From Microcaldota archaeon (GTDB lineage Archaea; Micrarchaeota; Micrarchaeia; Micrarchaeales; CABMGC01), in contig DAHVUT010000006.1 of assembly GCA_027328425.1 (NCBI GenBank), positions 1 through 45,598 of the forward strand: DNA of 45,598 nt, written 5' to 3'. Shown here piece by piece: positions 5,883 through 45,598 of this stretch (position 1 is the stretch's first letter; each line of letters begins with the position of its first letter). The notes beneath the pieces are model-generated. The model had not been told where the DNA came from. It saw only the letters and a list, made by a program, of their open reading frames with translations, and did no database searches. The position numbers and the translations under genes are program-made.

Positions 5883-7127
5883 TCATGAGATCACCACAGT
5901 AATTGCGCTGGGCATCATTGCCTCATTGCGCCATTCGTGCTCATTCCATTGAAGTACCGCAGGCTGCGCCAATGCAGCCACTACTCCTATCCCACTGCCC
6001 TTTGACAGCGGAATTCGGAGATACTTTTTCATTATGTTCAACGCACCACCTGAATCTGCATTGAATACGACGTTGTGCAGTTTACATCTGTACAAGCCCC
6101 TGTGGATTCTTCCATGCTCTTCATTGCCGCAAAGCGCACAGGTCTTTGAGGTGTCCTTCTCGCTTACTTTCCTGAACATTATGCCGTTTAGTTTTGATTT
6201 ATACTCCAACTGCAAGGTTATCTGTCCGAATATCCATTGGTGGTTTGCCTGATTCGTCTTTTTCCTGAAATGCATCGATTCCCTTATGCCGTTCAGATTG
6301 CCTATCACTATGCCCTTTCCCTCATTCTTTGCAGTATTGACAATCTTTGATGTCATTGCATGGATTTGCTGTTTTATCCTTCTTTTTGCCTGTCTTGCAA
6401 GCCTTCTTTTTTCCTTGCTGGTTTTCTTCTTCTGCATCGAGAGAACTCCTTGCACTTCCGCAACCTTTTTGTCTTTGTACTGGTTTTCTGCAAGCGCAAG
6501 CCCTCCTTTGTATAGAGTCGTATTTTTGCCATCATATATTGCAGCAAGGTTCTTCACCCCAATGTCTATATAGAGATTCTCTTTCGGTATTGAAGGTTCT
6601 GCATTTGGAACATCGAATACCAATGAAACCTTCCATGTTCCTTCTGATTTGAAGATTTCAATATATGCAAGCCTTCCCTCATACCTCAATTTTGGAATCC
6701 TGAAGTTGATATATGATATTCCTGTCTGTTTTCTGTATGCGATTGACATCGGAAGCGTTATTTTGTTCTTTTTCAGTTTGATCTGCTGCGATTTGTACGG
6801 CAATACCCATTCGGTATCTTTCTTATGATAGTGCGGGAATTCCGCAGCAGTGCCTTTCTTGTGGAGTGCAAGAAACGACTTTATGCTTCCTTCTACCTTC
6901 TGAAGCACCGCCTGCGCGGATTGCGACGCAAGAAGCCCATAAAGTTCATTGGTTTTTAGGTTCTTGCACATGTCTTCATAGAAAGAAAACTTCTTTTCTG
7001 CTCTGTACCTTTGATTATTCTCGTACAATGCTGAGTTATACAACCCGTTGGCGATCTTTGAGAGGTTTACTAACGCTTCTTCTGTCTGTTTATTCGGATT
7101 TATTGTTATAACCTGCGTTAGTTTCAT
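5883..7127 (-). CDS. tnpB: TnpB RNA-guided nuclease (IS605 OrfB), variant RuvC-II site
   Basis: 414 residues, full length. RuvC-I aspartate is D188 (YIDIGVKNL), RuvC-III aspartate is D358 (FNADSGGALNI). The RuvC-II position that usually reads (I/V)E(D/N)L is IGNL, with G276 in place of Glu; E283 in GIRES seven residues on may substitute, as in TnpB groups with a relocated glutamate. The zinc finger is C330, C333, C348 and His351 instead of a fourth Cys. Known role: guided cleavage of empty donor sites, favouring element retention. A TATA-like GTATAAATTG about 35 nt upstream of the start suggests its own promoter. Codon choice is more AT-rich than the flanking ATPase genes. Confidence 0.88.
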   Translation of the reverse strand: MKLTQVITINPNKQTEEALVNLSKIANGLYNSALYENNQRYRAEKKFSFYEDMCKNLKTNELYGLLASQSAQAVLQKVEGSIKSFLALHKKGTAAEFPHYHKKDTEWVLPYKSQQIKLKKNKITLPMSIAYRKQTGISYINFRIPKLRYEGRLAYIEIFKSEGTWKVSLVFDVPNAEPSIPKENLYIDIGVKNLAAIYDGKNTTLYKGGLALAENQYKDKKVAEVQGVLSMQKKKTSKEKRRLARQAKRRIKQQIHAMTSKIVNTAKNEGKGIVIGNLNGIRESMHFRKKTNQANHQWIFGQITLQLEYKSKLNGIMFRKVSEKDTSKTCALCGNEEHGRIHRGLYRCKLHNVVFNADSGGALNIMKKYLRIPLSKGSGIGVVAALAQPAVLQWNEHEWRNEAMMPSAITVVIS

Positions 7128-21510: not shown

Positions 21511-22713
21511 ATGGTCATCGTGAAAACCACATACAAATTCAGGGCATATCCTTCTCAGGTTCATAAATCAATGTTGAACCACCAAATGCATCTTTCCAAA
21601 CAACTCTACAATCTCCTTCTTGAAAAGTCGCAGGAACACTTCAAGGACTATGGAAAGGCATTCACAAAATTTGACATGAATAAGTGGATTACCCAACTCA
21701 AGAGGAAGTCCCCGGAGTTCAAGGAACTTCACTCGCAGGTCTGCCAAAACGTCGCAGACAGGGTTTCAAATGGGTATAAGCAATTCTTCCGAAGGATAAA
21801 GGAAAGAGAGACGGGGAAGAAGGTCAGGGCAGGATTCCCACGCTTCAAGTCATTCGTATCATCGTTGACATTTCCGCAGGAAGGCGGGTTCGTCATAGGG
21901 AAAAAGAAGGTCCGTCTCTCGAAAATAGGAAACATCAATTTCGTTAATCATAGGGATATCGAAGGAATCCCGAAGACCTGTGCTATAAAGAAGACTAAAA
22001 CAGACGAATGGTATCTCACAATTTCAACTGAGAAAGATGACATAGTTCCATTCACGAATGGAAAGGGGGCAGTCGGAATGGACCTGGGCATAAAGAAGTA
22101 TGCAGTCTTGTCGGACGGTTCTGTGCTGCATAATACTCACATGTCCGTGAAAGAGAGGTCGAAACTGAAAAGGCTTCAAAGGGTGATCTCAAGGCGTAAG
22201 AAAGGTTCTCGCAAAAGGAGAAAGGCGGTAATCGCTTTCGCAAGGAAATACGAACATATATCAAAAATCAAAGACGACCGCCTGCACAAACTATCGCACC
22301 GTCTTGTCAATTCCTACTCATTCATCGCATATGAGGGACTGGAAATCGCAAACATGATGGGAAACCACCGTCTTGCGAGAAATATCGGTGAGGAGTCTTG
22401 GGGAAAGTTCACCGACTATCTGCGCTACAAGGCTGAGAGCGCTGGTTGCGCAGTGGTCAGCGTAGATCCAAGGAATACGTCAAAGACATGCAGTGATTGC
22501 GGAAACATTCAGTATATATCTCTGTCGGAAAGGACATTCGCCTGCAATAAATGCGGTATGTCAAAGGACAGGGACCTGAATGCATCGGTAAACATACTCA
22601 ACAGAGCTACCTCTGGACAAGGGGGAAGTAACGCCTCTGGAGACAATGCAAGACCTCTCGCAAGAGAGGCAGTTGTCAAGGAACGAGGAACTATAATTGG
22701 CGATTCGCGATGA
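21511..22713 (+). CDS. tnpB: TnpB RNA-guided nuclease (IS605 OrfB), canonical active site
   Basis: 400 residues, full length. All three RuvC acids are present: D191 (VGMDLGIKKYAVL), E275 (FIAYEGLEI) and D355 (KDRDLNASVNIL). The zinc finger has four cysteines (C327, C330, C345, C348). The N-terminal TYKFRAYPS and the Arg/Lys-rich bridge region (about 213-237) are typical. It should cleave DNA next to the target motif under guidance of RNA from the element's right end. A TATA-like AATATAAATAC lies about 20-25 nt upstream of the ATG. It is only distantly related to the tnpB at 5883-7127, so the two belong to different subfamilies. Confidence 0.94.
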   Translation: MVIVKTTYKFRAYPSQVHKSMLNHQMHLSKQLYNLLLEKSQEHFKDYGKAFTKFDMNKWITQLKRKSPEFKELHSQVCQNVADRVSNGYKQFFRRIKERETGKKVRAGFPRFKSFVSSLTFPQEGGFVIGKKKVRLSKIGNINFVNHRDIEGIPKTCAIKKTKTDEWYLTISTEKDDIVPFTNGKGAVGMDLGIKKYAVLSDGSVLHNTHMSVKERSKLKRLQRVISRRKKGSRKRRKAVIAFARKYEHISKIKDDRLHKLSHRLVNSYSFIAYEGLEIANMMGNHRLARNIGEESWGKFTDYLRYKAESAGCAVVSVDPRNTSKTCSDCGNIQYISLSERTFACNKCGMSKDRDLNASVNILNRATSGQGGSNASGDNARPLAREAVVKERGTIIGDSR

Positions 22714-22735
22714 CCATCAAAGACGCCATTGGAAG

Positions 22736-22755
22736 CCCACGAATTAATTCGTGGG
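22736..22755 (+). repeat. Right-end hairpin of the tnpB element
   Basis: CCCACGAATTAATTCGTGGG, a perfect 20-bp palindrome. The 34-base segment from 22731 to 22764 that contains it recurs without change at 44281-44314. It also forms the terminal stem of the predicted TnpB guide RNA. Confidence 0.9.
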
Positions 22756-22761
22756 AGGATG

Positions 22762-23319
22762 TCACAACCCTTGCACGCCGCTGAGTGCAGCCCTTATGGC
22801 GCGTATCAGCCCAGGGTAATAATCGCGCTGCACATACTTCTTCGTGAGCTCGGGGTCGCCTATCTCCTTCTCAAGCCTGGCCAATGGAATGAACTCCACA
22901 GACTCTACCTCTTCCTTCTGCAGTGTCTGCGGCAGCGTGTCACGCTTTAACAGGTAAACGGTGTAGACGTGCTTGTTGTAGTAGCCAGGCTTCGGTTCTC
23001 CGCTGAGTTTCGACGCAAGTATCTCCTTCAGCTCTCCTGCTTCTGCCCTTATGCCCAGCTCTTCCTCTAGTTCCCTGAGCGCAGCCTGGATCCGTGTTTC
23101 GCCAGCGGACACGTGCCCTGCAGCCGATATGTCCAAGAGCCCAGGATAGCTCTCTTTAGACATCGAACGTTTCTGCAAAAGGACCTCTCCTTCAGTGTTG
23201 TATATCCATACGTCCACTGTCTGGTGCCACACCCCTTCTGCATGGGCGTCCTTTTTTGAAATGGTGTACCCCTGCATACTGCCATTCTCATCAACTACAT
23301 CAAGCAGTTCGTCTGGCAT
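22762..23319 (-). CDS. NUDIX hydrolase, Idi/YfcD-like; C-terminus altered by the adjacent insertion
   Basis: 185 residues. The Nudix box GHVSAGETRIQAALRELEEELG fits GX5EX7REUXEEXGU exactly. The surrounding sequence (DVVDENG, W.QTVDVWIYN, KRS..K..YPG..D.SAAGHV) is that of the isopentenyl-diphosphate-isomerase-like branch, as in YfcD, rather than a MutT. Substrate is unknown; a nucleoside or isoprenoid diphosphate is likely. The TGA stop (22764-22762) lies in the last three bases of the neighbouring mobile element. Rejoining the flanks gives an ORF with eight more residues (INAYSRKA). Confidence 0.88.
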   Translation of the reverse strand: MPDELLDVVDENGSMQGYTISKKDAHAEGVWHQTVDVWIYNTEGEVLLQKRSMSKESYPGLLDISAAGHVSAGETRIQAALRELEEELGIRAEAGELKEILASKLSGEPKPGYYNKHVYTVYLLKRDTLPQTLQKEEVESVEFIPLARLEKEIGDPELTKKYVQRDYYPGLIRAIRAALSGVQGL

Positions 23320-43496: not shown

Positions 43497-43994
43497 ATGA
43501 TAGGAACTGCAATCGAGCTGGCTGCAATAGCTGTGGCGTATGTAGCGCTGTCCATGTTCCTGCAACGAAAGCTCGGCGACGCCAAGCGCATGCGCAAGAT
43601 GCAGGAGCTGATAAAGGCGAAGAGCAAGGAACTCAATGACATGGCGAAGGCGCAGGCGAGCAAGGAGGCGCTGGAGGCCAAGCAGAAGGAGGTAACGGAG
43701 CTGCTGGGCCAGAGCATGAAGTCGTCCTTCAAGCCGCTCATAGCAGTGCTCCCGGTGTTCTTCATCCTGTACTACCTCATACTGCCGGCCATATTCCCAC
43801 ACACGCTCACGTTCACCATACCTGTCCTCTCCACTGTCAGCTACCAGACTTATTTCATAGTGATAGCATTCATAGCAGGCATAATTTCATCTATCGTGGT
43901 GATGGTCTGGGACAAGAGGGAACTGGCCAGGGAGAAGCAGCAGATAGCGGCCGCGGAGGCGCAGGCCGAGGCCCAGGACAGTGCGCTGCACTAA
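43497..43994 (+). CDS. EMC3/TMCO1/DUF106 membrane insertase (archaeal Oxa1/YidC-like)
   Basis: 165 residues with three membrane helices (about 5-20, 79-98, 118-140) and a cytoplasmic coiled coil between the first two (KRMRKMQELIKAKSKELNDM). This is the DUF106 design, the archaeal relative of YidC, EMC3 and TMCO1 that helps insert membrane proteins. It follows adkA by 4 nt as in many archaea. The stop is 15 nt before the miniature mobile element. Confidence 0.88.
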   Translation: MIGTAIELAAIAVAYVALSMFLQRKLGDAKRMRKMQELIKAKSKELNDMAKAQASKEALEAKQKEVTELLGQSMKSSFKPLIAVLPVFFILYYLILPAIFPHTLTFTIPVLSTVSYQTYFIVIAFIAGIISSIVVMVWDKRELAREKQQIAAAEAQAEAQDSALH

Positions 43995-44071
43995 CAAGAA
44001 GCTATTTATCAAATGCGAGCGGGAAAATACACATGCTTTCGCGGTGGGATGAGAGCGAGCCGATGAAATGG

Positions 44072-44099
44072 AAGCCTCCTTTGCCATCGGAGGCTTTTT
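44072..44099 (+). terminator. Terminator-like hairpin with T-run inside the miniature element
   Basis: AAGCCTCC-TTTGCCATC-GGAGGCTT, an 8-bp stem and 9-nt loop followed by TTT. It could end the transcript of the adkA-EMC3 genes, or isolate the element. Preceded by GG like the right-end hairpin. Confidence 0.5.
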
Positions 44100-44285
44100 G
44101 ACATCATATCGTTTCAATCGGTATGTGCTCGCTTCACCAGATTTGCCCAGTTGGATTCTGGGTCTTACGTGCCCTCTACGAGCCTTGTCCTCTCGGACTC
44201 CGCCGTGTCCCGACGTATAAGCAGCTTTCTCCGCAAAGGCATAAGAATCTTTTCGTCCCATGTCAATCATCGTTTCAATCGGAAG

Positions 44286-44305
44286 CCCACGAATTAATTC
44301 GTGGG
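44286..44305 (+). repeat. Right-end hairpin of the miniature element
   Basis: CCCACGAATTAATTCGTGGG, same perfect 20-bp palindrome as at 22736-22755, followed by AGGATGTCA to the boundary. AATTAA at its centre could act as a weak TATA box for thrS. Confidence 0.9.
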
Positions 44306-44348
44306 AGGATGTCACTAATGCTGTTTGCAATACTAGCGAGGCCTTTGC

Positions 44349-45598
44349 ATGAGAGTGTTACAGCTTGATGTGGAGAAGATAGGCTTTGAGATGCTGAAAC
44401 CTGAGGCCAGCATCTACGAGGAGAGCGAGGAGAAGAAAATCGAGGTTTCAGACGCACTCGTGCTGATGGTCTGTGTGGAGATGGGCGACACAGAGGAGAC
44501 AGGGGAAGCGGCGCTGAAGGACGCTCTGAAATTCATGGAGGATACCGGAAGGAAGAAGCTCGTCATATACCCATATGCCCATCTCAGCAGCAATCTGGCG
44601 GAGCCAAAGGAAGCTATAAAGGTGCTCGACCACATGCGCAAGCGGGTGCCCGATGGGATAGAGGTGAAGGGTGCGCCGTTCGGCTGGAACAAGAAATTCA
44701 GCATAGAGATGAAGGGCCATCCGCTTGCCGAGCAATCCAGGGGTTATGATGCTCAGGGCAAGGGCACGAAGATGAAGAAAGAGAAAGCGAAGCCGCAGGG
44801 CATTAATACAGCCATAGTGAAGAAGAGCGACTGGGCAGGCCTATCAGATACGGATCACAGGACCATAGGCGAAAGGATGGATCTGTACAGCTTCCAGGAA
44901 GTGTCGCCAGCGATGGTCTATTGGCACCCGAACGGTTACACGATATACAAGCAGCTCGTCGCCTTCATGCGGGAGAAGGAGGAGGAGTACGGCTACGAGG
45001 AGATAAGCACCCCTGCGATAGCCAATGTGGCGCTCTGGCACGTCAGCGGCCATATCGACCACTACAAGGACAACATGTTCGCCTTCGACTCGGGCTTCGG
45101 CACTTTAGGCCTCAAGCCGATGAACTGCCCCTCGAGCATGCTCATCTACAAGTCCAGGAAGTGGAGCTACAGGGAGCTGCCCTTCCGCACAGCCATATTC
45201 GACAGGCTCTACAGGAGCGAGCTGAGCGGCGTTGTCACGGGCCTGCTCAGGGTCAAGGAGCTGACGCAGGACGACGGCCATATCTTCGCCAGGGAAGACC
45301 AGATAGGCAGCGAGATAACGCAGGTGCTCAGGATGGTCAAGGAAGTGTACGACACTTTCGGCATGAAATACAGCGCCAAGCTCTCCACGATGCCTGACGA
45401 TCACATGGGAGACGAGGCGCTCTGGGAGCGCGCGACAGGCGAGCTGAAGCAGGCTTTGGATGCAAACAACATGAAGTACGAGGTGAAGGAGAAGGAAGGC
45501 GCGTTCTACGGACCCAAGATTGACTTCGATGTGCTCGACTCGCAGAACAGATCGTGGCAGCTAGCCACGATACAGCTCGACTACCAGCTGCCTACGCG
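44349..45598 (+). CDS. thrS: Threonyl-tRNA synthetase, archaeal type (3' end outside window)
   Basis: 416 codons visible. The N-terminal domain (MRVLQLDVEKIGFEMLKPEA, then KKLVIYPYAHLSSNLAEP) is the archaeal D-aminoacyl-tRNA-deacylase-like editing domain that removes mischarged Ser. The catalytic core follows: GERMDLYSFQEVSPAMVYWHPNG, motif 2 with LKPMNCPSSMLIYKS and FRTAIFDRLYRSELSG, and EGAFYGPKIDFDVLD. The ATG is 35 nt downstream of the miniature element. The probable original TATA box CTATTTAT (44002-44009) now lies on the far side of that element. Confidence 0.94.
   Translation, partial: MRVLQLDVEKIGFEMLKPEASIYEESEEKKIEVSDALVLMVCVEMGDTEETGEAALKDALKFMEDTGRKKLVIYPYAHLSSNLAEPKEAIKVLDHMRKRVPDGIEVKGAPFGWNKKFSIEMKGHPLAEQSRGYDAQGKGTKMKKEKAKPQGINTAIVKKSDWAGLSDTDHRTIGERMDLYSFQEVSPAMVYWHPNGYTIYKQLVAFMREKEEEYGYEEISTPAIANVALWHVSGHIDHYKDNMFAFDSGFGTLGLKPMNCPSSMLIYKSRKWSYRELPFRTAIFDRLYRSELSGVVTGLLRVKELTQDDGHIFAREDQIGSEITQVLRMVKEVYDTFGMKYSAKLSTMPDDHMGDEALWERATGELKQALDANNMKYEVKEKEGAFYGPKIDFDVLDSQNRSWQLATIQLDYQLPT

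Follow-up and report, generated by a model that had tools for sequence, protein, structure and literature searches.

The stretch of DNA analyzed here (the window) is a 45,598-nucleotide contig (DAHVUT010000006.1, positions 1 to 45,598) of the Microcaldota archaeon assembly GCA_027328425.1, and at 44010-44315 (+) it carries a 306-bp non-autonomous miniature inverted-repeat transposable element (MITE) of the IS200/IS605 type, which has the ends of a tnpB element and neither tnpA nor tnpB. From sequence comparison we consider it probable that this MITE carries a TnpB guide RNA (omegaRNA) split into two RNAs, a dual guide resembling the trans-activating RNA (tracrRNA) and crRNA of CRISPR (clustered regularly interspaced short palindromic repeats) systems, with TnpB supplied in trans. 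This reading is based on the homology and strand of the scaffold, on a structure supported by covariation, on the covariation of a repeat with an anti-repeat, on conservation across genera and on the spacing of a promoter-like box; that the two RNAs are transcribed, pair in cells, load TnpB and direct its cleavage, and that the element benefits, are steps which we infer.

An inverted omegaRNA scaffold inside the MITE

A covariance model trained only on minus-strand scaffold sequences of the MITEs (R2) matched the MITE of the window at 44120-44219 on the minus strand (E 5.2e-20). In the source genome (542 kb, 72% complete, called G000; the genomes compared with it are largely metagenome bins) R2 matched ten further places; four of these are small elements in which the omegaRNA is intact, and the others are tnpB 3' ends, matched on the strand of the gene. 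The matches lay just before the right ends at five tnpB loci (C8, C17, C20, C24 and C27), and a sixth tnpB, on C25, was matched at its end as well. The tnpB of the window itself has an intact, single-molecule omegaRNA scaffold homologous to the MITE minus strand at 22606-22696 (+; E 1.4e-8, whole genome), and matches in the tnpBs of relatives went down to E 5e-17. The omegaRNA of the C8 tnpB runs in the order CTACGGCGGGACACGCCGGAAGTCACGCTCGTGGAGA...GGGTCGCTGAAGCGAGAACATA-CCCCACAT...ATGTGGGG-GAAGCCCAC...GGATGTCAC, and the minus strand of the MITE reads TATACGGCGGGACACGCCGAAATCTACGCTCAGGGAGA...GAACTGAGAACATACC in relative G028 and ...GGTGAAGCGAGCACATACC-GATTGAAACGAT in the window. By this homology the interior of the MITE is a tnpB omegaRNA scaffold in inverted orientation. 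An earlier, sequence-only reading of the window had held that the interior does not derive from tnpB, which the R2 matches contradict, and that it may encode an RNA, which agrees with the structure predicted here; the minus strand of this RNA and its homology to the omegaRNA of tnpB had gone unnoticed in that reading.

The two helices of R2 contained 30 double-change cells on the minus strand, versus 9.9 in shuffles (0/500), and the first omegaRNA hairpin, CGUCG-GGACA-CGGCG (44201-44215, -), showed compensatory changes in all five pairs. The wobble cells of the alignment (U-G at columns 7-17, 38-96 and 42-92) are G-U throughout when read on the minus strand, whereas a plus-strand reading would make them A-C. 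Because such pairs are permitted only in the minus-strand RNA, and the tnpB homology lies there also, the structured RNA was assigned to that strand. The scaffold is conserved across genera. Covariation was also seen in a model, R1, that treated the interior as RNA of the plus strand, but this reading was dropped on the same two grounds.

The tracrRNA-like scaffold RNA is predicted to occupy 44060-44219 (-), with its 5' end near 44219. Its 3' end is a guess (about 44065), placed near a hairpin (AAGCCTCC/GGAGGCTT, 44072-44096) which adjoins the anti-repeat, is kept in copies, and possibly forms the 3' end structure of the minus-strand RNA. Rfam models gave nothing at E<=1 for 43900-44500, sotRNA RF02656/RF02657 included, and at the 3' end of tnpB nothing relevant.

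A repeat and an anti-repeat on opposite strands

A 14-base direct repeat was found in almost every intact copy of the element, and its sequence is specific to the copy (ATCGTTTCAATCGG, TCGTTTGTTTCGG, CATCGTTTCGTTTCTGG, TTGGTTTTCAGTTGG, CCAGTTTGCACTTGG, CCAGTTGTTGCTTGG and others). On the evidence of sequence, covariation and duplex energies, the first copy of the repeat in the window (44108-44121, -) is read as the anti-repeat CCGATTGAAACGAT, on the 3' side of the scaffold, and the second (44269-44282, +) as the repeat ATCGTTTCAATCGG, with which the crRNA-like RNA would begin. An interior hairpin, this direct repeat and a second hairpin had all been noted in the sequence-only reading and all are present, but the repeat is not incidental: one copy is read as an anti-repeat and the other as the repeat, on separate RNAs which would be able to pair in trans.

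Identity between repeat and anti-repeat over the 14 positions was 0.93 within elements versus 0.62 between elements and 0.70 between copies of the same genome, and the observed within-element match was reached in none of 50000 permutations. For 28 repeat types the mean duplex energy was -23.7 kcal/mol for cognate and -12.1 for non-cognate pairs; the exceptions were mostly decayed copies, copies with a common repeat type, and one copy in the wrong register (G029).

Ordinary omegaRNAs have a cis stem between GAACATA(C) and GAAGCC (in the C8 example, GAACATA-CCCCACAT...ATGTGGGG-GAAGCCC). The MITEs have the anti-repeat after ACATA of the minus strand and the repeat immediately ahead of (G)AAGCC of the plus strand; by position the anti-repeat is the 5' strand of the omegaRNA stem and the repeat its 3' strand. 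Since they cannot meet in one transcript, pairing is possible only between two RNAs. In all of the intact copies that were read, the scaffold lay on one strand and the right end on the other, so that the one continuous RNA of an omegaRNA is not present; the complementarity of anti-repeat to repeat lies between two RNAs and covaries, as in a dual guide. We looked within the element for a third cis segment which would pair with both repeats and found none that was consistent.

Two other readings were considered. Duplication of an insertion site by an inner mobile unit was ruled out by the coincidence of the repeats with the strands of the omegaRNA stem, and the loops of an IS110 bridge RNA were ruled out by the IS200/IS605 ends together with the omegaRNA homology.

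A central promoter-like box

A TATA-like box at 44240-44247 lies approximately 25 nt from both predicted 5' ends and reads CATAAGAA in the window and CATATATA or CATATAAA in most copies. Across copies its median distance is 28 nt from the first base of the scaffold and approximately 27 nt from the start of the repeat, which is the customary spacing between TATA box and transcription start in archaea. A single box of this kind could drive both divergent RNAs. A sigma-70 promoter scan was uninformative for an archaeon.

Proposed mechanism

In the mechanism we propose, the central box would act as a bidirectional promoter, giving a minus-strand RNA that would provide the omegaRNA scaffold and end in the anti-repeat. 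The plus-strand RNA would consist of the repeat and the hairpin of the right end, followed by a guide that copies the adjoining flank. They would be joined by an anti-repeat:repeat duplex of 13-22 nt, in place of the cis stem of ordinary omegaRNAs, and probably also through a guide-proximal pseudoknot, in which UGUC of the right end could be paired with the GACA that is invariant in the first hairpin's loop, a pairing like that of the ISDra2 pseudoknot. The RNA duplex would then load a TnpB encoded elsewhere in the genome, and the guided TnpB would cut the TTTAT-flanked empty site (TTTAT-TAATGCTG...), so that retention of the element would be favored, as has been proposed for omegaRNA generally. 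The MITE itself would be moved by TnpA in trans.

From what is known of TnpB omegaRNA biology, the predicted guide is TAATGCTGTTTGCAATACTA in the right flank (44316-44335, +), which with TTTAT would match the empty site. The right end had previously been proposed as a source of a guide for TnpB; it can supply one, but alone it is without a scaffold and would need the minus-strand RNA. We are inclined, with somewhat less assurance than for the split itself, to regard the family as a CRISPR-free dual-guide TnpB system with element-specific repeat:anti-repeat pairs, in which guide-only derivatives could borrow the scaffold of a sister element in trans.

Ends and target site of the element

The last 35 bases of the MITE (44281-44315) and of the tnpB element (22731-22765) are the same, GGAAGCCCACGAATTAATTCGTGGGAGGATGTCAC. 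This right end (+) corresponds to the 3' part of the omegaRNA and contains the hairpin CCCACGAATT/AATTCGTGGG and GGATGTCAC. The left end (44010-44059, +) is an imperfect hairpin, CAC..GTG around ATGCTTTCGCG, as in the tnpB elements of the genome, and agrees with that of the tnpB element in sequence and spacing. TTTAT, the target and transposon-associated motif (TAM), stands at the left junction (44005-44009) without target-site duplication. In relative G002 the exact match to the flanks ends at 44009 on the left and resumes at 44316 on the right, each beside an uninterrupted TTTAT, and the element end was for this reason placed at 44315 and not 44314. The MITE is thus inserted 3' of a short conserved site without duplication. 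The sequence-only reading had described a miniature derivative of the tnpB element with a matching left end and a right end identical over 34 bases; this description holds, with one further identical base, while its limits (44010-44314, 305 bp) fall one base short.

In G002 the left flank of the window MITE adjoins the right flank of the copy on C16 in a single uninterrupted locus (84% over 255 bases). The two copies have therefore swapped flanks, either by recombination between MITEs or through misassembly (an assembly chimera). As repeat and scaffold class are alike in the window and C16 copies, the conclusion on the dual RNA is unaffected.

Copies and distribution

Five copies of the whole element are present in the source genome, the window copy, three with 85-93% identity to it and one with 69%. 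A DNA search of relatives followed by covariance model R1 gave about 60 matches to the interior, spread over two families and 34 of the 164 genomes of the order. Among the weakest R1 matches, some few are tnpB 3' ends read antisense and not MITEs. The interior thus recurs with other copies, far more than chance would allow, and the outcome which the sequence-only reading had named as its refutation, an interior of unique host DNA without further copies, did not occur. In a search across the phylum (301 genomes) a single additional match was found outside the order, and this was degenerate. Matches in genome collections were labelled Micrarchaeota, with the exception of one contig labelled Marsarchaeota, and no exact match was found in viral contigs.

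Nearly all intact copies are flanked by an IS200/IS605-type left end and by a right end. In five copies (G094:C23, G096:C11, G096:C31, G029:C19 and G152:C32) the interior is kept with a left end of another type, and in G152 the right end is also of another type; judged by sequence, the same interior with differing ends is a modular exchange of ends. A block of approximately 100 nt is identical between C14:7756-7921 of the source genome and 44120-44219 of the window in otherwise diverged copies, and this points to a recent conversion inside the scaffold.

Derivatives with a single repeat, which have lost all that lies between the repeats, scaffold and central promoter included, were seen at G028:C19:11573-11603, G028:C27:15910-15941 and G054:C19:2808-2838, and G027:C2:6668-6810 is probably another. 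In G028 and G054 their repeat is the same as that in a full copy of the genome concerned. These derivatives may be dead, or may be guide-only elements using the scaffold of the sister copy.

Transposase and TnpB genes

That the MITE could be moved by a TnpA elsewhere, as had been supposed earlier, agrees with the presence in the source genome of one Y1 TnpA gene (C20:7914-8264), which would act in trans. There are nine TnpB matches in this genome, among which the tnpB of the window (21511-22713, +; 400 aa; Pfam OrfB_IS605 and Cas12f1-like TNB) is a possible protein partner in trans. A second TnpB-family gene of the window (5883-7127, -; 414 aa), with the same two Pfam matches, showed no match to the omegaRNA type of the MITE. 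At C8:10370-10473 the left end of a tnpB element is duplicated in tandem.

Alternative explanations

The strongest alternative is that the MITE is inert, that it carries an inverted fragment of omegaRNA, that recombination or gene conversion keeps the direct repeats alike, and that no dual RNA exists. The single-repeat derivatives (two in G028, one in G054, probably one in G027) do point to recombination or slippage between repeats, and the identical block of some 100 nt in two copies of the source genome is a sign of conversion. However, compensatory changes keep the structure of the scaffold across many genera, each repeat falls exactly on one strand of the cis stem found in omegaRNAs, and the promoter-like box is correctly spaced from both RNA ends in most copies. 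We regard this explanation as unlikely.

Slightly less likely again is a regulatory decoy, in which the minus-strand scaffold RNA would hold TnpB without a guide, or anneal to the plus-strand RNA, and so dampen TnpB, the plus-strand RNA having no working guide. A conserved scaffold could indeed bind TnpB guideless, but this would leave unexplained the conserved 3' part (an intact right end with its adjoining flank), the matched repeat and the promoter ahead of the 3' part.

That the interior is unrelated to tnpB and forms a plus-strand structured RNA of unknown role, with the right end alone giving a guide, is very improbable: folding of the plus strand scores covariation too, stems being visible on both strands, but the wobble pairs fix the strand, and the minus-strand homology to the tnpB omegaRNA has already refuted such an origin of the interior.

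Several observations weigh against the split omegaRNA, which nevertheless remains the reading we prefer. The TATA-like box of the window copy (CATAAGAA) is degenerate, and a few decayed copies (G101, G152 and G019_C13) have diverged repeats. Mismatches between repeat and anti-repeat that are compatible with G-U were only mildly above those giving A-C (7 vs 3). Finally, the recombination between repeats seen in the single-repeat derivatives makes some homogenization by conversion possible.

Comparison with known systems

The MITE shares with TnpB omegaRNAs the scaffold hairpins, ACATA and GAAGCC around the stem, the right-end hairpin, a guide from the right flank and a TTTAT-type TAM. It differs in that these parts would lie on two RNAs of opposite strands, joined in place of the cis stem by an intermolecular duplex of 13-22 bp, and in the lack of tnpB in the element. 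The omegaRNA of ISDra2 contains a pseudoknot and has been called a natural single guide, since a tetraloop at -20 to -17 links its crRNA-like part to its tracrRNA-like part (PMC10097598). From their cryo-EM study of TnpB the same authors suggested that tracrRNA-crRNA pairs derive from a split omegaRNA (PMC10097598). We would place the ISDra2 tetraloop in stem 4; the break in the MITE appears instead to lie in the stem that precedes the right-end hairpin and not within the right-end stem, if the stems correspond as we infer.

Other MITEs and stand-alone omegaRNA elements derived from IS200/IS605 are similar in their ends, in size and in the lack of tnpA and tnpB, but those on C2 and C6 have the omegaRNA intact in cis, whereas in the 306-bp MITE family it would be split. 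The small elements of the source genome with an unsplit omegaRNA and without a full tnpB are C2:1375-1447, C2:4219-4291, C6:4037-4109 and C6:1065-1149, the last of which has its own TATA-like box.

Splitting of the omegaRNA, reportedly at the origin of type V CRISPR, is claimed in the title of Jin et al., Cell 2025 (doi 10.1016/j.cell.2025.09.004). The split intermediates proposed there resemble the present case in that omegaRNA splitting yields a tracrRNA and a crRNA; here the split would be in MITEs of Micrarchaeota, with copy-specific repeats, a divergent promoter and no CRISPR array at the element. In the literature on TnpB with MITE or with Micrarchaeota we found no description of such a split-guide element.

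If our reading is correct, the omegaRNA has also been split outside CRISPR, in MITEs of two archaeal families where the split is maintained by covariation, and this would be a present-day parallel to the supposed step from omegaRNA to tracrRNA and crRNA. The gains from a split guide (copy-specific pairing, scaffold sharing, and escape from overlap with the tnpB gene) would become directly testable. A dual-RNA format would be added to those of TnpB, and others could be sought by a simple sign, an inverted omegaRNA scaffold with a short direct repeat on either side.

No repeat-spacer array was found in the copies read, where the two repeats flank a scaffold and not spacers; no systematic search of the loci for cas genes was made. 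With type V CRISPR-Cas12 systems (e.g., Cas12f) the MITE would share the two-RNA logic of tracrRNA:crRNA, an anti-repeat scaffold RNA with a repeat-guide RNA, whereas it has no CRISPR array, spacer acquisition or Cas gene at the locus and would carry one guide per element.
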